From Rhodocyclales bacterium (lineage in GTDB: Bacteria > Pseudomonadota > Gammaproteobacteria > Burkholderiales > Rhodocyclaceae), in assembly GCA_016235165.1 (NCBI GenBank), contig JACRLX010000030.1, forward strand, positions 83,766-138,292: a DNA stretch of 54,527 bases, read 5' to 3'. The notes beneath the pieces are model-generated. The model was given only the letters and a program-made list of their open reading frames with translations. It ran no database searches and had not been told where the DNA came from. Of the stretch, positions 23,877 to 37,895 are shown one piece after another. The stretch's first letter is position 1. Every line of letters starts with the position of its first letter. A program made the position numbers and the translations under genes.

Positions 23877-26800
23877 ATGCAAGTCTCACGGCGGCAGTTC
23901 TTCAAGATCTGCGGCGCCGGTCTCTCCGGGTCATCCATCGCCCTGATGGGTTACTCGCCGACATCGGCCCTGGCCGAGGTGCGCAGCTACAAGCTGGCCC
24001 ACGCCACGGAAACCCGCAACATGTGCCCCTACTGCTCGGTCAGTTGCGGGGTCCTGATCTACACCACGGGCGACAAGTCCAAGAACGCAAAAGCGGACAT
24101 CATCCACATCGAGGGCGATCCGGACAATCCCGTGAATCGCGGCACGCTGTGCCCCAAGGGCGCCGGCCTGCTCGACATGGTCAAGAGCCCCAACCGGCTC
24201 AAGTTCCCCGAAGTGCGCGAGCCCGGCAGCAACGAGTGGAAGCGCATCTCCTGGGATGACGCCCTGACGCGCATCGCCAAGCACATGAAGGCCGACCGCG
24301 ACGCCAACTTCATCGAGAAAAACGCCGCCGGCGTCACGGTGAACCGCTGGCCCACTTTCGGCTTCCTCGCTTCCTCCGCCGCCAACAACGAAACGGGATA
24401 TCTCAGCCACAAGGTACTGCGCAGCCTCGGCGCCGTTGCCTTCGATACGCAAGCACGCATCTGACACGCCCCCACGGTATCCAGTCTGGGTCCGACATTT
24501 GGGCGTGGCGCAATGACCAATCACTGGGTCGACATCAAGAATGCCGACCTCGTGCTGATCATGGGTGGCAATGCCGCCGAAGCGCATCCCTGCGGCTTTA
24601 AATGGGTCATCGAAGCGAAGAAGGACCGCAAAGCCAAGCTGGTCACGGTCGATCCGCGCTTCACGCGTTCCGCCGCCGTTTCCGATTTCTATGCGCCGGT
24701 GCGTGCGGGTTCCGACATCGCCTTCCTCGGCGGCGTCGTTAACTACCTGCTCGAGAAGGACAAGATCCACCACGACTACGTCAAGAACTACACCAACGCC
24801 GGTTTCCTGATCAATCCCGACTACAAGTTCGAGGACGGCCTCTTCTCCGGCTACAACCCGGAAAAGCGCAACTATGCCAAGGCCACCTGGGGTTACCAGA
24901 TGACCGAGGCGGACAAGAAGACCGGCGAGTCCTGGGTCAAGGTGGATCCGACCCTGCAGGACCCGAACTGCGCCTTCCAGTTGCTGAAGAAGCACTACAG
25001 CCGCTACACGCCGGACATGGTGAGCAAGGTCACCGGCACGCCCAAGGAAGCCTTCCTCAAGGTCTGCGAAATGATCGCGGAGACCGCGGCGGCCGACAAG
25101 ACCATGACCATCCTGTATGCGCTGGGGTGGACGCAGCACTCGGTCGGTTCGCAGAACATCCGCACCATGGCCATCATCCAGACCCTGCTCGGCAACATGG
25201 GCATGGCCGGTGGCGGCATCAATGCGCTGCGCGGGCACGCCAACGTGCAGGGCATCACCGACATGTGCCTGTTCGGCGCCAACCTGCCGGGTTACATCGC
25301 TTCGCCGACCGAAGCCGACGTCGACCGCAAGACCTATGTCGAGAAGCGCACGCCGAAGGCCCTGCGTCCGGGCCAGATGAACTTCGCGCAGAACTTCCCG
25401 AAATGGTTCACCAGCCTGCAGAAGGCCTGGTACGGCAATGCGGCGACCGACAAGAACGACTTCGCCTACGAGTGGCTGCCCAAGATCGACGGTGCCTACG
25501 ATACTTTGGCCATCTTCGAGAAGATGCACCAGGGCAAGATCAACGGCTTCGTCTGCCAGGGCTTCAACCCGCTGGCCTCGGTGTCGAACAAGAAGAAGGT
25601 GGGCGACGCGCTGGCCAAGCTGAAGTACCTGGTTGTCATCGATCCGCTGGCGACCGACACCTCCGAGTTCTGGAAGAACCACGGCGAGTTCAACGAAGTC
25701 GATGCCTCGAAGATCGCGACAGAGGTGTTCCGCCTGCCGGCCGACTGCTTTGCCGAGGACACGGGCTCGTTCACCAACTCCGGCCGCGTCATCCAGTGGC
25801 ACTGGAAGGCCGCCGACGGTCCCGGCGAATCCAAGGGCGACATCGAGATCATCGCCACGCTGTTCCAGAAACTCAAGGCCATGTACGCCAAGGACGGCGG
25901 CAAGCTGCCCGATCCCATCATGAACCTGACCTGGGCGCATCGCATCCCGACCAAGCCCTCGTCGGCGGAACTGCTGATGGAAATCTCGGGCAAGGCGCTG
26001 GGCGACGTCTTCGATCCCAAGGACAAGACCAAGGTCATCGCCAAGGCCGGCGAGCAACTGGCCGGCTTCGCGCAACTGCGCGACGATGGTTCCACCTCCT
26101 GCGGCAACTGGATCTACGGCGGCTGCTGGTCGCAGGCCGGCAACCTCACGGCGCGGCGCGACAACGCCGATCCGTCCGGCCTCGGCCAGACGCTGCTGTG
26201 GGGCTTCGCCTGGCCGGCCAACCGGCGCATCATCTACAACCGTGCGTCGTGCGACCTGGCCGGCAAGCCCTGGGACCCGAAGCGCACGGTGATCCGCTGG
26301 ACCGGTACCGCCTGGGCGGGCAATGACATTCCCGACATGCGCCCCGACGCGGCGCCGGACGAGAACGTCATGCCTTTCATCATGACCCCGGAAGGCGTGG
26401 CGCGGCTGTTTGCGCCAGGTATGGCCGAAGGCCCCTTCCCCGAGCACTACGAACCCTTCGAGACGCCGCTGGACAAGAATCCCTTCCACCCAGGCAACCC
26501 GAAGGCGCTCAACAATCCGGCCGCCCGCGTATACAAGGGCGACATGGAGGTGTTCGGCAAGGCCAAGGACTTCCCCTACGTCTGCACCACGTATCGCCTC
26601 GTCGAACACTTCCACTTCTGGACCAAGCACGCAAAGATCAATGCCGTGCTTCAGCCGGAACAGTTCGTGGAAATCGGCGAAGAGCTGGCCAGGGAAAAGG
26701 GCATCGCCAACGGCGACCGGGTCAAGGTGCGCAGCAACCGCGGCTTCATCAAGGCCGTGGCGGTGGTCACCAAGCGCATCCCGACCCTGATGATCGACGG

Positions 26801-29485: not shown

Positions 29486-29886
29486 ATTTGCTTTTGCCGG
29501 CGACTAAGCCGGCGGGGCGGAGAATTGCCCAACGCGTATTCTCTGACGTCATGACAAGGCTATCCGGCGTTGTGCCGGTACGCCAGGTTCAAGGACCGGG
29601 CCGCATTGTTTCGTGAGCTGCAGGGGTATGCCTTCGCCGTACTGACTGACATGCATTTCGAATGCAGGGGCCTCATGGACGGAATACGTTGAACATCGAG
29701 ATCAACTCAAACGTGCGCTGGGGGTCACATAACTCATGTGCCGTTGGCCCAACCCATCATTCCATCGGACCTTACGCATAAAGCTGCGCAGCGTCGGTCA
29801 CCTGCATGTTCGGCCCCTTTAGCCCGCTCCTAATCGCATCTACAGTTTGCCTTGACTTCCGACCATATTGCATCTACGATTTGACA
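29486..29886. other. Intergenic region between fdhE and brnT; no gene seen
   Basis: About 400 bases with no convincing frame. A weak hairpin (gccggc/gccggc, 29495-29512) follows fdhE. From about 29620 the base composition becomes less GC-rich than the fdn operon, marking entry into the acquired segment. The brnT promoter sits at its right end. Confidence 0.5.
29836..29884 (+). promoter_or_regulatory. brnTA promoter with direct-repeat operator
   Basis: -35 TTGACT (29852-29857) and -10 TACGAT (29875-29880) with 17-base spacing. The repeat gcatctacagtttg / gcatctacgatttg (29836-29849 and 29870-29883) overlaps both elements, as expected for autoregulation by the BrnA antitoxin. Confidence 0.6.
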
Positions 29887-30159
29887 GTGATCACCTTCGA
29901 CGAAGCCAAACGCCAAACGAACATTGCCAAGCACGGCATCGATTTGGCGGCGCTGTCCGGCTTCTTTGACGGTGACTTGCTGACCCGCGAAGATGCCCGC
30001 GAAGCCTATGGCGAGTCGCGCTTTCAGAGCGTTGGCTGGCACGCGGGAGAAATGCTGTTCGTTGTCTGGACGCCGGGCGACAACGAATGGCCTCACATTA
30101 TTTCGGCGCGAAAGGCGGAAAAACATGAGCGCGAAGCGTGGACACGTTTCTGTAAATGA
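29887..30159 (+). CDS. brnT: BrnT family ribonuclease toxin
   Basis: 90 residues from a GTG at 29887. BrnT toxins are small RNases of the RelE-like fold. Visible family pattern: FDEAKRQTNIAKHGIDL near the N-terminus, GESRFQSVGWHAGEMLFVVWTP, and IISARKAEKHEREAW at the end. The -10 hexamer ends only 6 bases before this GTG, so the mRNA may be leaderless; an ATG at 29806 exists but lies upstream of the promoter. Overlaps brnA by 35 bases, toxin first, as usual for brnTA. Confidence 0.85.
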   Translation: MITFDEAKRQTNIAKHGIDLAALSGFFDGDLLTREDAREAYGESRFQSVGWHAGEMLFVVWTPGDNEWPHIISARKAEKHEREAWTRFCK

Positions 30160-30400
30160 TGCTCCGGCTACCAAACCGGACGATTGGAATAATGCATTTG
30201 TCACCCACTCGGCTGACGAGCTTCGCAAAGTAGTTGCTGCGCGTCGTACTCGCGGGCCAAACAAACACCCGACGAAGGAGCAAGTCGCGGTGCGATACAG
30301 CCCGGAAGTACTCGCCTATTTCCGCGCTACCGGAGCAGGCTGGCAAACTCGCATGGATGAAGCATTGCGCGAGTATGTGTCTCGACACAAGGCCGCGTAG
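30125..30400 (+). CDS. brnA: BrnA family antitoxin
   Basis: 91 residues starting at the ATG at 30125. The C-terminal half (KEQVAVRYSPEVLAYFRATGAGWQTRMDEALREYV) is the ribbon-helix-helix DNA-binding domain of BrnA; the N-terminal half binds and neutralises BrnT. The direct repeats upstream of brnT are its probable operator. The pair forms an independent type II toxin-antitoxin module inserted between fdhE and lysE. Confidence 0.87.
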   Translation: MSAKRGHVSVNDAPATKPDDWNNAFVTHSADELRKVVAARRTRGPNKHPTKEQVAVRYSPEVLAYFRATGAGWQTRMDEALREYVSRHKAA

Positions 30401-30523
30401 TTTTCCCATCAGGGGCCGAACCCGGCGTTCCATAGGACGCGCCGCGATGAAGCCGCGTCGCGCCTCTGAACTTGAACGTGTGCGTCACAAATCCATCCAC
30501 CAATCCGACCGGAGCTATGCCAA

Positions 30524-31138
30524 ATGATCAGCCTTGAATTCCTTGTTACGTCGCTCATTGTGGTGCTCATCCCGGGCACGGGCGTCGTCTATACCGTGTC
30601 GACAGGTCTCGTTCAAGGCCGCAAAGCGAGCGTCTTCGCCACGCTTGGGTGTACGGCCGGAATCATCCCTCACCTCCTCGCTACGGTTCTTGGCCTGGCT
30701 GCTCTCATGCACACAAGTGCCGTCGCATTTCAAATGCTCAAATACGCTGGCGTTGCCTACCTGCTCTATATCGCCTACGCGACTTGGCGCGACGAATCCG
30801 CCTTCGCAGTTGATGAAAGCTTGTCCACAAGCTCAGCTTCAGGCTTGGTCGTCAAGGCGTTTCTGCTGAACATCCTTAACCCGAAATTGACAATTTTCTT
30901 CCTCGCTTTCCTGCCCCAGTTCATTCCGCCCGATGCAGATCAACCGCTCTTGCAGCTTCTGCTATTGAGCGTCATTTTTATGGCCATGACGTTATTCGTA
31001 TTCGTCATCTACGGCCTTCTTGCGCACCTATTTCGCAAGACCGTCATTGAGTCGCAGAGGGTGCAATCCTGGCTTCGCCGTGGATTTGCGGCCACATTTG
31101 CGGGTCTTGGGACAAACCTCGCATTTACGGAAAAGTGA
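30524..31138 (+). CDS. LysE/RhtB family amino-acid exporter
   Basis: 204 residues, six hydrophobic segments, N-terminal signature FLVTSLIVVLIPGTGVVYTVSTGLVQG and the conserved LNILNPKLTIFFLAFLPQF. It exports amino acids or related metabolites across the inner membrane; the substrate is unknown. GGAG lies 10 bases upstream of the ATG. Codon usage is visibly less GC-biased than the fdn and sel genes, like the adjacent brnTA, which suggests both came in together. Confidence 0.88.
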   Translation: MISLEFLVTSLIVVLIPGTGVVYTVSTGLVQGRKASVFATLGCTAGIIPHLLATVLGLAALMHTSAVAFQMLKYAGVAYLLYIAYATWRDESAFAVDESLSTSSASGLVVKAFLLNILNPKLTIFFLAFLPQFIPPDADQPLLQLLLLSVIFMAMTLFVFVIYGLLAHLFRKTVIESQRVQSWLRRGFAATFAGLGTNLAFTEK

Positions 31139-31196
31139 GTCTCCCCCGGTCTGCCTTATGCTTTACCATTCCAACCAGAACAAAGGAGCCCTCCCC

Positions 31197-31700
31197 ATGA
31201 GACGCCTGCTTTCCCTGTTCGCCCTCCTGCTGGCGGCGGCTTTCAGCCTGCCGGCATTGGCCGATCACCTCGACGGCGTGCTGCCGCTGCACAAGGACGA
31301 CCTCGCCGCCGTGGCGGCGGCGAAGAAACAGCCCGACCGCCATGTCATGCTGTACTTCGGCGACCACCTGAACTGAGGAGCTTGTCGCTACACCGTGAGT
31401 GTGCTCAAGAAACCCGAAGTCAGCGCAAAATTTACGCAGCATTTCCTCGGCGCCCATGCCGATTTCGGCGAGCTGGACCTGGACGACAGGGACCCGCGGC
31501 ACGAGATGGTCAAGCGCCACAATCCGCGCAAGCTGCGGCCGGTGCTGGTCTTCCTCGATGGTTCCGGCAAGGAGGTGGCGCGCCTGACGGGCGGCCTCAA
31601 GACCGTCGAGGATGCGCTGCTGCTCGACCGCTACGTGGCCGAGAAGGCCTACCTCAAGGGCGGCGATTTCGCCTCCTTCAGGAAGGCGCAGAAGGGCTGA
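31197..31700 (+). CDS. Exported thioredoxin-like protein with predicted selenocysteine (UGAC redox motif)
   Basis: Start at 31197 has AAAGGAG 8 bases upstream. The frame meets TGA at 31374-31376 and continues in the same frame, coding-like, to 31700. Reading TGA as Sec gives 167 residues: signal peptide (cleavage after ALA, about residue 22), strand HVMLYFGD, then Sec60-G-A-C63 at the thioredoxin CxxC position, then VLVFLDGSGKEVARLTGG, the cis-Pro/beta-strand side of the fold. A SECIS-like hairpin follows the UGA. selA, selB and tRNA-Sec lie within 7 kb. Likely a periplasmic thiol/selenol oxidoreductase. The alternative is a Cys-to-stop pseudogene. The 3' end overlaps the convergent HPP gene by 23 bases. 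Confidence 0.75.
31378..31409 (+). promoter_or_regulatory. Candidate SECIS hairpin for the thioredoxin-like selenoprotein
   Basis: ACAC (31390-31393) pairs with GTGT (31399-31402) around loop CGTGA; a lower helix is CTTG/CAAG (31381-31384 with 31406-31409) or GAGC/GCTC (31378-31381 with 31403-31406). The loop starts 17 bases after the UGA and has G at its second position, within the range described for bacterial SECIS elements. The pairing is weaker than that of fdnG. Confidence 0.5.
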
Positions 31701-32433
31701 TTCCGGCTGTCGCGGCCTGGGCTGCCAGGTTGCGCTGCCTTCCCGTCGCCAGCGCGTAGATTCGCAGCAGGTCGTCTTCCGAGACATCGATGAAGGAATC
31801 CATCTGCGATAGCGCGTAGACGAAGTCTTCGTGCGAAATCGCGCCATAGGCGGCGGACGCCGCAAGCGGCGCTTCGTTTGCCTTGACCAGCGCCGCCGGA
31901 TAGCGCCGCCACGGAAACAGCGCATTGAAGGCGATCGCCACCGCCAGCATGATCAGTACGTTGAGCATCAGCGGCGAGAGGACGAAGCCGAAGCCCATGG
32001 CCTTCACCGTTTCGTTGCCCAGCGCGGCGGCCAGTGCCGTGGCGCCGGCCGGCGGGTGGATGCAGCGCAGGTAGTGCATCGCGCCCAGTGCGAGGCCCGT
32101 GGCGAGGGCGGCTGCCAGCATCGGCTGGGGAACCCACAGCAGGCAGGCGATGCCGATCACGCCCGAGACGAAATGGCCGCCCAGCAGCGGCCAGGGCTGC
32201 GAGAGTGTGCCGTGCGGCACGGCGAACAGCATCGCGGCGGTGGAGCCCATCGACAGCACCAGGATGGGCGAGGCCGCCGGGCCCAGGATGGCCTGGCTGG
32301 TCCAGAATACGGCGAGGATGGCGATGCAGCCACCGAGCGCCGAGACGAGCCGCTCGCGGTGGCTGACCGGGCTGAGTTCGATGCCGAGCAGCCGCAGCCA
32401 GCGCCCGCGCGCGGCGATGGGGTGTGGGGTCAT
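31678..32433 (-). CDS. HPP family membrane protein
   Basis: 251 residues from the ATG at 32433, which has a perfect AAGGAGG upstream; the longer frame to 32493 lacks one. Several TM helices and the family signature CIHPPAGATALAAALG are present, with a short soluble C-terminal tail (ISHEDFVYALSQMDSFIDVSEDDLLRIYALA). HPP proteins have been linked to nitrite transport in chloroplasts and cyanobacteria; the bacterial substrate is unknown. Divergent from selA, convergent with the selenoprotein. Confidence 0.88.
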   Translation of the reverse strand: MTPHPIAARGRWLRLLGIELSPVSHRERLVSALGGCIAILAVFWTSQAILGPAASPILVLSMGSTAAMLFAVPHGTLSQPWPLLGGHFVSGVIGIACLLWVPQPMLAAALATGLALGAMHYLRCIHPPAGATALAAALGNETVKAMGFGFVLSPLMLNVLIMLAVAIAFNALFPWRRYPAALVKANEAPLAASAAYGAISHEDFVYALSQMDSFIDVSEDDLLRIYALATGRQRNLAAQAATAGISPSAPS

Positions 32434-32666
32434 GCGTCCTCCTTGTGCTCTCCGGCGCGTGGTCGATAGCGGCATTTGGCCTGCACTCGCCACGGCGCAC
32501 CATGATTCCCGTCAACGCCGGCGGCTGTTGCGAGGTTCCCGCCGCCGAACTTGTGCGCGAACTCGCCGAGGGATTCCGCCGCTGACTGCTGCGCTGCGGC
32601 GTGATCGCGGCGCCGCCTGCCGCTAGAATCGCGCCATCGTCGTTTCTGCCCGGTCCGGGTGAAATC

Positions 32667-34070
32667 ATGAATCCTCTCTCCCAGCTTCCGTCGGTCGACC
32701 GCCTGCTCGCCAGCGCGGCGCTGCTTCCCCTCATATCAAGCCACGGCCGCGCCGTCGTCACCGAGGCGACGCGCGCAGCCCTGGCGGCCGCGCGCGAGGC
32801 CGTGAAGCAGGGCGCGCCGCTGCCCGGCGAGGCGATGCTGATTGCAAGAGTCGGCGCTGGCGTCACGGCGAAAATGGCGCCCAGGCTGCGCCCGGTGTTC
32901 AACCTCACCGGCACCGTGCTGCACACCAACCTCGGCCGCGCGCCGCTGCCTGAAGAGGCGGTGCAGGCGCTTGTCATGGCCGCGCGCAATCCCTGCGCCC
33001 TGGAATACGACATCGACTCCGGCGGGCGCGGCGACCGCGATGACATCGTCAATGAATTGCTGTGTGAACTGACCGGCGCCGAGGCGGCGACGGTGGTGAA
33101 CAACAACGCGGCGGCGGTGTTCCTGCTGCTCAACACCCTGGCACCGAAGAAGCAGGTGATCGTCTCGCGCGGCGAGCTGATCGAGATCGGCGGCGCCTTC
33201 CGCGTGCCCGACATCATGAGCCGCGCCGGGGCCAGGCTGGTCGAGGTCGGCACCACCAACCGCACCCATCTCAGGGATTTCGCCGAAGCCATCAACCCGC
33301 GCACGGCGATGCTGATGAAGGTGCACGCCAGCAACTATGCCATCCACGGCTTTACCCATGCCGTGCCCGAGGCCGAGCTGGCGGCGCTGGCGCATGACAG
33401 GGGCCTGCCCTTCGTCATTGACCTCGGCAGCGGTACGCTGACCGATCTCGCCGCTTACGGTCTGCCGCACGAACCGACGCCGCGCGAGGCCATTGTCGCC
33501 GGCGCCGACCTGGTCACGTTTTCCGGCGACAAGCTGCTGGGCGGGCCGCAGGCCGGCCTGCTGGTGGGTCGCAAGGAGCTGATCGCGAAGATCAAGAAGA
33601 ATCCGCTCAAGCGTGCCCTGCGCGTCGGCAAGCTGACGCTGGCTGCGCTGGAAGCCGTGCTGGCGCTCTACCGCGACCCCGAGCGCCTGCATTTGCGGCT
33701 CACCGCCGTGCGCCAACTGAGGCGGCCCGAGGCCGAAATCGCGGCGCAGGCGGCGCGCCTGTTGCCGGCTTTGCTGTCGGCGCTGGGGGAACTTCCGGTC
33801 ACGGCGCAGATCATTGCCTTGAAGTCCCAGATCGGTTCCGGCTCGCTGCCGGTCGATCGCCTGCCCTCGGCCGGTTTCGCGATTCGCCCGGTGGGGAAGA
33901 AGAGCGGTGTGCTGAATCGCATCGAGGCTGCACTGCGCGGCGTGACGCCACCCTTGCGCCCGGTGATCGGCCGCATCGAGGATGGCGCGCTGCTGCTCGA
34001 TCTGCGTTGCCTCGATGCGAAGGACGAACAGGATTTCCTCGACACGCTCGCGGGTTTGCGGGCGGGTTGA
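32667..34070 (+). CDS. selA: L-seryl-tRNA(Sec) selenium transferase
   Basis: PLP enzyme that converts seryl-tRNA-Sec to selenocysteyl-tRNA-Sec using selenophosphate. 467 residues from the ATG at 32667, close to the E. coli length (463). The PLP lysine lies in [13 protein letters not shown], and [17 protein letters not shown] and the tRNA-binding N-terminal region are recognisable. The GTG at 32601 in the same frame is a less likely start. A TAGAAT -10-like element (32624-32629) precedes it. First of selA, tlpA-like, transglutaminase, selB, selC in one direction. Confidence 0.96.
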
Positions 34071-34165: not shown

Positions 34166-34185
34166 GGTTGCAGGAAAGGGGAAGC

Positions 34186-34719
34186 ATGATGTTCCATCGA
34201 CGTTTGATAGCCTGGGCAGCGGCACCGCCCCTGATCTGCGGTTTGATGCCATCGCCCACGCTGGCGGCCGGCGCGGCCTGGGCCGAACTCAAGCCGGTGA
34301 CCGCGCAGGCCGTGCCTGGCGGCGCCGACAAGCGCCTGGCGGAAATGCTCAAGGCGCACCGCGGCAAGCCCGTGCTGGTGAATTTCTGGGCCACCTGGTG
34401 CGAGCCCTGCCGCGAGGAAATGCCTTCACTCGGGCGCCTTGCCGCGCGCTGGCAGGCCAAGGGCCTGGTGGTGCTGACCGTGGCCGTCGCCGACAACGAC
34501 AGGCGCGCCGAGGATTTTCTCTGGGAAGTCCTGCCCGAAGGACAGAAACTGCCCCTGCTGCACGACCGCGAACAGGCGCTCGGCCGCGCCTGGGGTGCGC
34601 GCATGCTTCCCGCAACCGTAGTTCTCGACCGCCGCCACCGCGTCGTCGCCAAGGGAATGGGTGCCATCGACTGGGATGCGCCCGCCACCGACAAGCAACT
34701 GCACACGCTGCTCAACTGA
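34186..34719 (+). CDS. TlpA/ResA-type thioredoxin-like protein
   Basis: 177 residues with an N-terminal signal (cleavage near residue 28, TLAAG) and a TlpA-type thioredoxin domain: LVNFWATWCEPCREEMPSL carries CEPC at 72-75, and MLPATVV holds the cis-proline. Such proteins reduce specific periplasmic disulfides, for example in cytochrome c maturation. It lies between selA and selB, so it may keep a selenoenzyme partner reduced; that is inference. Two in-frame ATGs (34186, 34189) are both possible. Confidence 0.88.
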   Translation: MMFHRRLIAWAAAPPLICGLMPSPTLAAGAAWAELKPVTAQAVPGGADKRLAEMLKAHRGKPVLVNFWATWCEPCREEMPSLGRLAARWQAKGLVVLTVAVADNDRRAEDFLWEVLPEGQKLPLLHDREQALGRAWGARMLPATVVLDRRHRVVAKGMGAIDWDAPATDKQLHTLLN

Positions 34720-34732
34720 ACAGGAGAACACC

Positions 34733-35848
34733 ATGGATCGTCGCCACTTCATCAAGACCGCCACCGCATCTGCCAGCTTCGCCGCCGCCGCCCTGGCCGT
34801 GCCGCGCTTCGGCATCGCCGCCGCGGGTGCCGGCTTCAACCCCAACCCGGCGAATGGCTGGCGCGTGTTCGAGGTCACCAGCCGCATCGAGGTCTCGGCC
34901 GCCAGCGGCGCGCCAAAAATCTGGCTGCCGCTGCCCTCGGTCGAGGATGCCGGCTGGATCAAACCGATGGGCAACCTGTGGCAGGGCAATGCCATCGCCG
35001 TGCAGGAGGCGCGCGACCCGGTGTATGGCGCACGCATGTTGGCGGCGCAGTGGGATGCCGGCGAACCGGCGCCGTTGCTGGAGGTGGTCAGCCGCTTCGC
35101 CACGCGCGACCGCGCCGTCGACCTGTCCAAACCGGGCAAGGTCGCCGCGCTGGACAAGGCCAGCCGTGCGCTCTACACGCGGGCCACGGAACTGCTGCCG
35201 ACCGACGGCATCGTCAGGAAGACCGCGCTCGACATCACCAAAGGTGCCAGGAGCGACGTGGACAAGGCGCGCGCGCTCTATGAATGGGTGGTGGATAACA
35301 CCGAGCGCAATCCCAAGACGCGCGGCTGCGGTACCGGCGATATTCGCGGCATGCTCGAATCGGGCAACCTCGGTGGCAAATGTGCCGACCTCAACGCGCT
35401 CTACGTCGGCCTGGCGCGTGCCGTCGGGCTGCCGGCGCGCGACCTGTATGGCGTGCGCGTGGCCGATTCGAAATTCGGCTACAAGAGCCTGGGCAAGAGC
35501 GGCGACATCAGCAAGGCGCAGCATTGCCGCGCCGAAGTCTGGCTGGCGGATTTCGGCTGGCTGCCGGTGGACCCGGCCGACGTGCGCAAGGTGGTGCTGG
35601 AAGAAAAGCCCGGCCTGACGCTGAAGGATGAGGTCGTGGTCGCCGCGCGGCAGAAGCTCTTCGGCGCCTGGGAAATGAACTGGCTGGCCTACAACGTGGC
35701 GCACGACCTGGCGCTGCCCGGCGCGAGGGGGGCGAAGCTTCCCTTCTTCATGTACCCGCAGGGCGAGAACGCAGCGGGTCGCCTCGACAGCCTCGACCCG
35801 GCGAGCTTCGTTTACAAGCTTGCGGCGAAGGAGATTACGGCGGCATGA
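34733..35848 (+). CDS. Tat-exported transglutaminase-like protein
   Basis: 371 residues. The N-terminus [20 protein letters not shown] is a Tat signal (RRHFIK). The transglutaminase-like core shows the triad Cys217 ([23 protein letters not shown]), His264 (HCRAEVW) and Asp280 (LPVDPAD). Probable periplasmic protease or acyltransferase; the substrate is unknown. CAGGAG precedes the ATG and its stop overlaps the selB start (ATGA), so it is translationally coupled to selB, which is unusual for an exported enzyme. Confidence 0.88.
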
Positions 35849-37791
35849 TCGTCGGCACTGCGGGGCACATCGACCACGGCAAGACCACGCTGGTCAAGGC
35901 GCTGACCGGCGTCGATGCCGATCGCCTGCCGGAGGAGAAGGCGCGCGGCATCACGCTCGACCTCGGCTACGCCTATGCGCCGCTGGCCGATGGTTCGGTA
36001 CTCGGCTTCGTCGATGTGCCGGGACACGAAAAGCTGGTCCGCACCATGCTGGCCGGCGCCACCGGCATCGATTTCGTGCTGCTGGTGATCGCCGCCGACG
36101 ACGGCCCGATGCCGCAGACGCGTGAGCACCTGGAACTGCTCGATCTGCTCGGCATTACGCGCGGTGCCGTGGCGCTCAACAAGGTCGACGCGGTGAGCCC
36201 GCAACGCTTCGCCGAGGCGCAGGCCGAGGTCGAGGCGCTGCTGACCGGTACGGCGCTTGCGGGCTGTCCGCTGTTTCCGCTGTCGGCGAAGAGCGGCGAG
36301 GGCGTGGCCGCACTGCTCGCCCATCTCGCTGCGGAAGCGGCGCGGACGGAGGCGCGAGAGGCGGCGCAGGGGCGCTTTCGGCTCGCCATCGACCGCTGCT
36401 TCAGCCTCGCCGGCGCCGGCACGGTGGTTACCGGCACGGCTCACGCCGGGAAAGTCGGCGCTGGCGACACGGTGACCATCGCGCCATCGGCGCGGGGCGG
36501 GCCGCTGCGGGCACGGGTGCGCAGCCTGCACGTGCAGGACCGCCCGGCGCCGCAGGGCGCGGCCGGCGAGCGCATCGCCCTGGCCCTGAGCGGCAACTTC
36601 GCAAAGGGCGAAATCGCGCGCGGCATGTGGGTCGTCGATCCGGCACTGGCCGTGCCGCTGCTGCGCTTTCACGGCGAGCTGCGCGTGCCGGCCGGGCAGG
36701 CGCCGCTGAGGCATTTGCAGAACGTGCATGTGCACCTCGGCACCGAGGACATCATGGGCCGCGTCGCGCTGCTGGACTGCGCCGAGACGGGGCCTGGGGC
36801 GACGGCGCTGGTCGAGATCCTGCTCGAACGCGAAACCCTGGCCCTGCGCGGCGACCGTTTCGTGTTGCGCGATGCCGGCGCGCAGCGCACGGTGGCGGGC
36901 GGGCGCGTGCTCGACATCTTTCCCCCGGCGCGGCACAAGCGCAGCGCCGAGCGCCTCGCCCTGCTCGGCGCCCTGCGCGCGGACGATCTGCTCGCGGCGC
37001 TGGAGCTCATGACGCGGCAGGGGCTGGCCGGCGTGGACCTGGAACGCCTTGCCGTGGCCTGGAACCTCGCGCCAGCGCAAGCCGATGCCCTGTGGCTGCG
37101 TGCCGGCCTGCGTCAGGTACGTGTCGGCGAGGCGCGGCTGGGTTTTGCCGCCGTGAGCTGGGCGGCGCTGGAGACACGCCTGCTCGATGCCCTGGCGCGC
37201 GAACACGAGCGCGCGCCCGACCTGGCCGGCGTCGAGCGCGAGCGCCTGCGGCGCATGACCGCGGCCAACCTGCCGCGCGCCGCCTTCGACGTGCTGGTCG
37301 GCGAGTTGCTCGCCGCCGCAAGCCTGGCGCAAACCCGCGCCTGGCTGCATCTGCCCAGCCATGCCGTCAGTGTCTCGGCCGCCGATCGCGATCTGTTCGC
37401 GGTGCTGAAGCCCCTGCTCGACGCGCAGCCCTTCAACCCGCCCCGGGTGCGCGACGTGTTCCGCGCCAGCGGCACGCCGGAAGACACGGTGCGCCAGTTG
37501 TACCGACGCATGGCGCGCGGCGGCGAGCTGTATCCGGTGGCGCACGATCATTTCTTCACGGCGGCGGCGGTGGCCGATCTCGCCGCCATCGTCGCCCGCC
37601 TGAGCGCCGAAAAGGGCGCGGCGCGGGCTGCCGACCTGCGCAATCTCATTTATGCCGATGGCAGCGGCGGGCGCAAGGTGGCGATCCAGATCCTCGAATT
37701 CTTCGACCGCATCGGCTACACTCGCCGTGTGCGTGACGAACATGTGGTGCGCGCCAACGGCGCGGGTCAGGCATGGATGGACAATAACTAA
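35845..37791 (+). CDS. selB: Selenocysteine-specific elongation factor SelB
   Basis: GTPase that brings Sec-tRNA to UGA codons at ribosomes bound to a SECIS hairpin. 648 residues (E. coli 614). G1 [11 protein letters not shown]3 DVPGHEKLV and G4 NKVD are intact, followed by EF-Tu-like domains 2-3 and C-terminal winged helices that bind SECIS RNA ([12 protein letters not shown] ... REVFRASG type). ATG at 35845 overlaps the transglutaminase stop. tRNA-Sec begins 8 bases after its stop. Confidence 0.96.
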
Positions 37792-37799
37792 AGTACTAC

Positions 37800-37895
37800 G
37801 GAAGAGAACGTTCCCCGGTGGGGCGGCCGGTCTTCAAAATCGGCAGGGGTCGCCACGCGGTCCCTGGTGGGTTCGACTCCCTCTCTCTTCCGCCA
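37800..37895 (+). tRNA. selC: tRNA-Sec (UCA)
   Basis: 96 bases including CCA, with the 8-bp acceptor stem GGAAGAGA/TCTCTTCC that distinguishes tRNA-Sec, a long variable arm, T-loop GTTCGACTCC, and anticodon TCA at 37834-37836 in CTTCAAA. E. coli SelC is 95 bases. It lies 8 bases after selB and 21 bases before sodC, so it must be processed from a longer transcript or have a promoter inside selB. Confidence 0.97.

Follow-up and report, generated by a model that had tools for sequence, protein, structure and literature searches.

A probable exported thioredoxin-fold selenoprotein encoded upstream of selA and selB in the Rhodocyclaceae

Does an in-frame TGA mark a broken gene, or a codon for selenocysteine (Sec)? 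The question is raised by positions 31197–31700 of a 54,527-nucleotide stretch of a Rhodocyclales genome (contig JACRLX010000030.1, the whole stretch being referred to here as the window), which form one reading frame with a single internal TGA (31374–31376) and a terminal TGA at 31698–31700. The mechanical listing of open reading frames (ORFs) cuts this frame in two, 31020–31376 and 31395–31700, the second starting from an internal GTG. Because standard stop-codon rules split the frame in this way, the gene would be missed or called a pseudogene. Read through, the product is MRRLL...HVMLYFGDHLN-U-GACRYTV...KAQKG, in which a thioredoxin-type site, U-G-A-C, begins with the internal TGA and follows the strand HVMLYFGD. 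On the sequence evidence we regard it as very likely that the gene encodes a selenoprotein, since the UGA at codon 60 is conserved as a sense codon and is followed by a SelB-type hairpin, and since the genome carries the genes for SelA, SelB, tRNA-Sec and SelD. To the fuller statement, that this is an exported thioredoxin-fold selenoprotein presumably acting as a periplasmic thiol-disulfide reductase, we assign a probability of about 0.65. The features of the gene are as follows:

31183..31188, + strand: ribosome-binding site AAGGAG, 8 nucleotides (nt) 5' of the ATG
31197..31700, + strand: coding frame of the putative thioredoxin-fold selenoprotein, 167 residues with U60, in 34/34 close copies
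31197..31262, + strand: probable signal peptide, residues 1–22, read by eye
31374..31376, + strand: predicted Sec-UGA codon, residue 60, TGA in 34/34 copies
31383..31385, + strand: putative resolving Cys63 of U-G-A-C, Cys in 34/34 copies

Homologues were sought in 121 related genomes, in 31 genomes of the genus and in a draw of 395 genomes from the family. This yielded 34 close copies in 33 genomes, all of one family: 26 of the 31 genus genomes and seven genomes of three other genera, with two copies in a single genome (G025, 10% contamination). Every one of the 34 has TGA at the aligned codon, Cys three residues on, and a frame that is otherwise open up to the terminal stop, free of frameshifts; among them, and in the genomes searched, no close copy with a sense codon at the TGA position was found. 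A comparable Shine–Dalgarno (SD) string precedes 33 of the 34. The copies share 60–89% identity, and their active sites read UGAC, USAC, UGTC or UPFC, the U and C being constant. The ratio of nonsynonymous to synonymous polymorphism (pN/pS, 28 sequences) is 0.385 before the TGA, signal peptide excluded, and 0.37 after it, as would be expected if the part past the stop is translated.

More distant homologues from related bacteria, Cys thioredoxins of the same length class, carry CPFC or CPYC. In all 16 that were aligned, which were picked by searches and partly by a text filter for CxxC, the first Cys falls at the TGA position. With 25–31% identity they lie far outside the range of the Sec copies. 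In an alignment of 36 proteins, with C written for U, the columns of residues 60 and 63 do not vary. The TGA form was not found outside the family in draws of 369 genomes from the class (E up to 1e-12), 300 from the order (E up to 1e-25) and 359 from the phylum (E up to 1e-10), draws which overlap, which include the window genome and in which scoring was confined to some of the first-look candidates; nor did the protein have a match in a plasmid collection. The first-pass annotation had read the two ORFs as one frame split by a TGA, preceded by a good SD, with the TGA at the first Cys of a CxxC motif, the resolving Cys kept and the frame coding-like to 31700, and each of these points is borne out by the comparison, disabling frameshifts being found in none of the close copies.

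Apart from this, the most diverged active site (U-P-F-C) belongs to L057:8079-8564, in which bases 4–8 past the UGA differ and a different lower stem is predicted; its bases 13–32 are unchanged.

The hairpin behind the UGA was compared with the selenocysteine insertion sequence (SECIS) of fdnG, the formate dehydrogenase gene of the window:

31387..31404, + strand: SECIS-type hairpin (RNAalifold, motif scan, 34 copies)
24462..24464, + strand: Sec-UGA of fdnG, positive control (Rfam SECIS_3 at 24459–24517)

Numbered from the U of the UGA, the pairs are G14-C31, C15-G30, A17-U29, C18-G28, A19-U27 and C20-G26, with a bulged U16 (31389) and a five-base loop C-G-U-G-N (31394–31398) holding GU at 31395–31396. 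Bases 13–32 are identical in all 34 copies except at loop base 25, and RNAalifold returns the hairpin. The fdnG SECIS has the same plan one base farther from its UGA, its bulge being U17 and its five-base loop likewise containing GU. In Escherichia coli fdhF the bases contacted by SelB are U17, G23 and U24.

The hairpin sequence is also conserved at the codon level. In 28 sequences, codons +4 to +9 (CGC TAC ACC GTG AGT GTG) are free of synonymous differences, although four or six codons are available for five of their six residues; at +8, Gly replaces Ser in two of the 28. Averaged over 154 scored columns the value is 0.306, and one as low as that of codons +4 to +11 arose in 65 of 200,000 column permutations (kinship ignored).

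For the motif scan the plan was defined as two pairs, a bulged U, four pairs and a five-base loop with GU, 13 or 14 bases past any TGA. When the TGA triplets of the window were scanned on both strands and in every frame, two of 1,255 were followed by it, namely those of this gene and fdnG; as the plan was drawn from the same two elements, the informative control is that the other 1,253 lack it. In 17 longer loci it occurs at 24 of 6,627 TGAs, 17 at this gene and seven with fdnG sequence, and it follows none of the 27 terminal TGAs among the 34 genes. Across the whole genome the 20-base pattern of the hairpin is unique to this gene, and no viral contig matched the pattern together with the TGA. 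A bacterial SECIS model quoted in PMC13188914 has a loop of 3–9 nt, at least 4 base pairs (bp), a G in the first two loop bases, a spacing of 16–37 nt and a minimum free energy of at most −7.5. The element falls within these limits in 34/34 copies: the loop has 5 nt with G second, there are 4 bp and, below the bulge, 2 bp, the UGA-hairpin spacing is 17 nt, and the energies are −7.5 or lower.

The genes for Sec synthesis and insertion lie just downstream:

32601..34070, + strand: selA, mechanical ORF whose true start may be slightly downstream (TIGR00474, 575 bits against a cut-off of 268)
35845..37791, + strand: selB (TIGR00475, 428.5 bits against a cut-off of 242)
37800..37895, + strand: tRNA-Sec (ARAGORN; Rfam RF01852 at 37800–37891)

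All three are within about 6.2 kb, some 6.1 kb separating the gene end from tRNA-Sec; besides tRNA-Sec, ARAGORN finds one other tRNA gene in the window, for Met. Elsewhere in the genome selD has two matches over the curated cut-off (G000:C8:29449-30378 and G000:C1:53944-54867), which completes the set of SelA, SelB, tRNA-Sec and SelD. Here too the first-pass annotation stands: it had placed selA, selB and tRNA-Sec within 7 kb, had cited FdnG for Sec use, and fdnG is indeed split by a Sec TGA with a Rfam SECIS match; its SECIS-like hairpin with a G in the loop is present and can now be specified by the bulged U and the GU of the five-base loop.

The gene and selB also occur together. In the family draw selB was found in 115 of 395 genomes, that is, in 25/25 with the gene versus 90/370 without it (hypergeometric 5e-15, kinship ignored). 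Within the genus, 25 of the 26 gene-bearing genomes have selB, and over all gene-bearing genomes the count is 32/33. Five genus members are without the gene; four have no selB and one (G016) has two. The two selB genes of G016 are at G016:C16:5338-7227 and G016:C7:120869-122767, the second being more diverged by score.

The predicted structure is a confident thioredoxin fold: the first long helix opens with the redox pair, and a core strand is preceded by a conserved Pro. The break in the frame falls between strand 49–55 and helix 61–70 of this one domain. The closest folds are those of a Helicobacter pylori thioredoxin-fold protein, DsbH and DsbD-gamma. In a second look limited to the chains ranked highest by Foldseek, the H. 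pylori protein (PDB 4fyb, 4fyc), which we take to be HP0377, gave the highest Z (14.6; root-mean-square deviation 2.9, 134 aligned, 18% identity), and it is also the best profile match (E 1.2e-10). Unlike the protein predicted here, it is a Cys protein. DsbH, a disulfide reductase (NCBIfam NF043050; PDB 2ju5), likewise has Cys. It is the best NCBIfam match of the window protein, yet at 14.6 bits against an equivalog cut-off of 190 the identity as DsbH was rejected. No NCBIfam model fits the window protein, and a scan of 28 copies gave weak matches alone. PF13098 is matched by 11 of the 28 (E up to 1, best 3e-6), L057 reaching 27.6 against a gathering score of 27; the selenoprotein TsoB (NF045694, cut-off 805 bits) is also weakly matched by 11 of the 28 (best E 2.3e-6). 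According to PMC13188914, TsoB differs from this protein in being a fusion of rhodanese/DsbD-like type whose two Sec residues lie in UxxxxU.

Several observations weigh against the interpretation offered above. No Rfam SECIS family is found at the site (E up to 10), where folP and sR32 alone appear, at chance level, while fdnG does match one. The window copy has another, more stable fold, the pairing probability of the hairpin being 0.21, and 19 of the 34 copies include the hairpin when folded to minimum energy. Its lower stem is weakly supported (mean z −0.78, 19/25 negative), and the amino acid sequence by itself is enough to produce the apical plan in 2,246 of 75,000 synonymously recoded versions (3%). 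Because the apical pairs do not vary, covariation is uninformative. The window protein scores below the Pfam gathering thresholds (PF13899, 14.7 against 27) and does not match PF13098. As to distribution, all copies come from one family, so that their counts are not independent; G016 carries selB without the gene, and one gene-bearing genome (G019, fragmented and 83% complete) gave no selB, selA adjoining the gene there.

What else might the TGA be? That it is the lesion of a pseudogene, a Cys thioredoxin broken by one in-frame stop, is the least credible account: the same stop stands in 34/34 otherwise open copies, and selection is equal on either side of it. Slightly less improbable, though still very unlikely, is that two products are made, the first piece ending at the TGA and the second translated from the GTG at 31395, as the ORF in the mechanical listing would have it. 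Against this, both pieces form one thioredoxin domain, the GTG sits in the loop of the hairpin, by eye no ribosome-binding string precedes it, and a TGA kept in 34 of 34 is not expected of a chance stop. The frame being read through by some means, one may ask if another amino acid is inserted, by readthrough or a suppressor tRNA. This we hold to be about as improbable as the two-product scheme, given that the hairpin matches that of the fdnG Sec codon, that distant homologues have Cys at the UGA position, and that the gene and selB co-occur; the tRNAs found in the window by ARAGORN are those for Met and Sec, suppressor tRNAs not having been sought genome-wide.

A more serious alternative accepts the selenoprotein and questions its job. 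Thioredoxin folds serve disulfide isomerases, peroxidases and the handling of selenium compounds alike, entries named disulphide isomerase and DsbC are among the closest sequences of known structure, and a place beside selA-selB in most copies would fit selenium handling. Such a role is a possibility to be taken seriously, if clearly the less probable one. 

In the reading that we favor, with a reductase role, SelB carrying Sec-tRNA-Sec would bind the hairpin and Sec would be inserted at the UGA. The protein would then be exported to the periplasm, where Sec60 would attack a disulfide or a similarly oxidised substrate and Cys63 would resolve the mixed selenenyl-sulfide. The redox pair might be re-reduced through a membrane donor such as DsbD, which the genome encodes.

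Thioredoxin-fold UxxC selenoproteins are already known as a kind. The present family appears to be absent from the inventories searched, NCBIfam and the accessible part of a 2026 inventory of 119 selenoprotein families (PMC13188914). The nearest heading there, a broad one at the level of Pfam, is PF13098 UxxC 'thiol:disulfide interchange protein', a predicted selenoprotein (WP_011366075.1) which, compared by description only, has the thioredoxin fold and UxxC in common with ours. A term search of the available text of the deep-Sep paper (PMC12013277) was without match. Among the papers searched, none treats Sulfuritalea, the probable genus of the window genome, together with selenocysteine. 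Deng et al. (2026) are said to have predicted selenoproteins from groundwater genomes, and this gene may be among their candidates. In the window, existing models recognise formate dehydrogenase as a selenoprotein; the present gene would add a strongly supported one to the lineage. Its hairpin, with the plan of the fdnG SECIS set one base nearer the UGA, would be a helpful naturally occurring variant for the same SelB. The searched genomes yielded no close version with Cys, which makes the family a natural system for asking why a periplasmic thioredoxin keeps Sec.

Besides the window there are 33 copies, and the neighborhood of all of these except G021 was annotated. Among these 32, selA follows within 2 kb downstream and in the same orientation in 27, as in the window; in the other five (L024, L041, L047, L051 and L056) no selA was observed at that place, L024 being visible only for 1.5 kb downstream. 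A frequent arrangement is fdnG-fdnH-fdnI-fdhE, then this gene, then selA and selB; an HPP gene in opposite orientation often precedes selA. The labels fdnG, selA, selB and HPP come from profile matches; fdnH, fdnI and fdhE are presumed names. As a guess from position, this linkage may point to a function connected with periplasmic formate dehydrogenase or with the supply of selenium. One might go further and picture a Sec-dependent periplasmic redox partner that co-evolved with the formate dehydrogenase and Sec-synthesis genes and serves FdnG or periplasmic selenium, close Cys versions being missing because Cys cannot do the job, but this is speculative and we think it rather unlikely.

Around the gene, its 3' end (31678–31700) shares 23 bp with a convergent minus-strand ORF (31678–32493) for an HPP transmembrane protein (PF04982), and an opposed HPP gene recurs beside the selenoprotein gene in many relatives. 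Between selA and selB (34168–35848) lie a TlpA-like thioredoxin with a TTG start and a transglutaminase-like protein, a pair present in some relatives and absent in others, like a removable cassette. On the upstream side, the interval 29806–31138, which separates this gene from the fdhE-like ORF, contains a BrnT toxin-family ORF (PF04365) and a LysE-family ORF; many relatives have a gap of only about 100–250 bp there.
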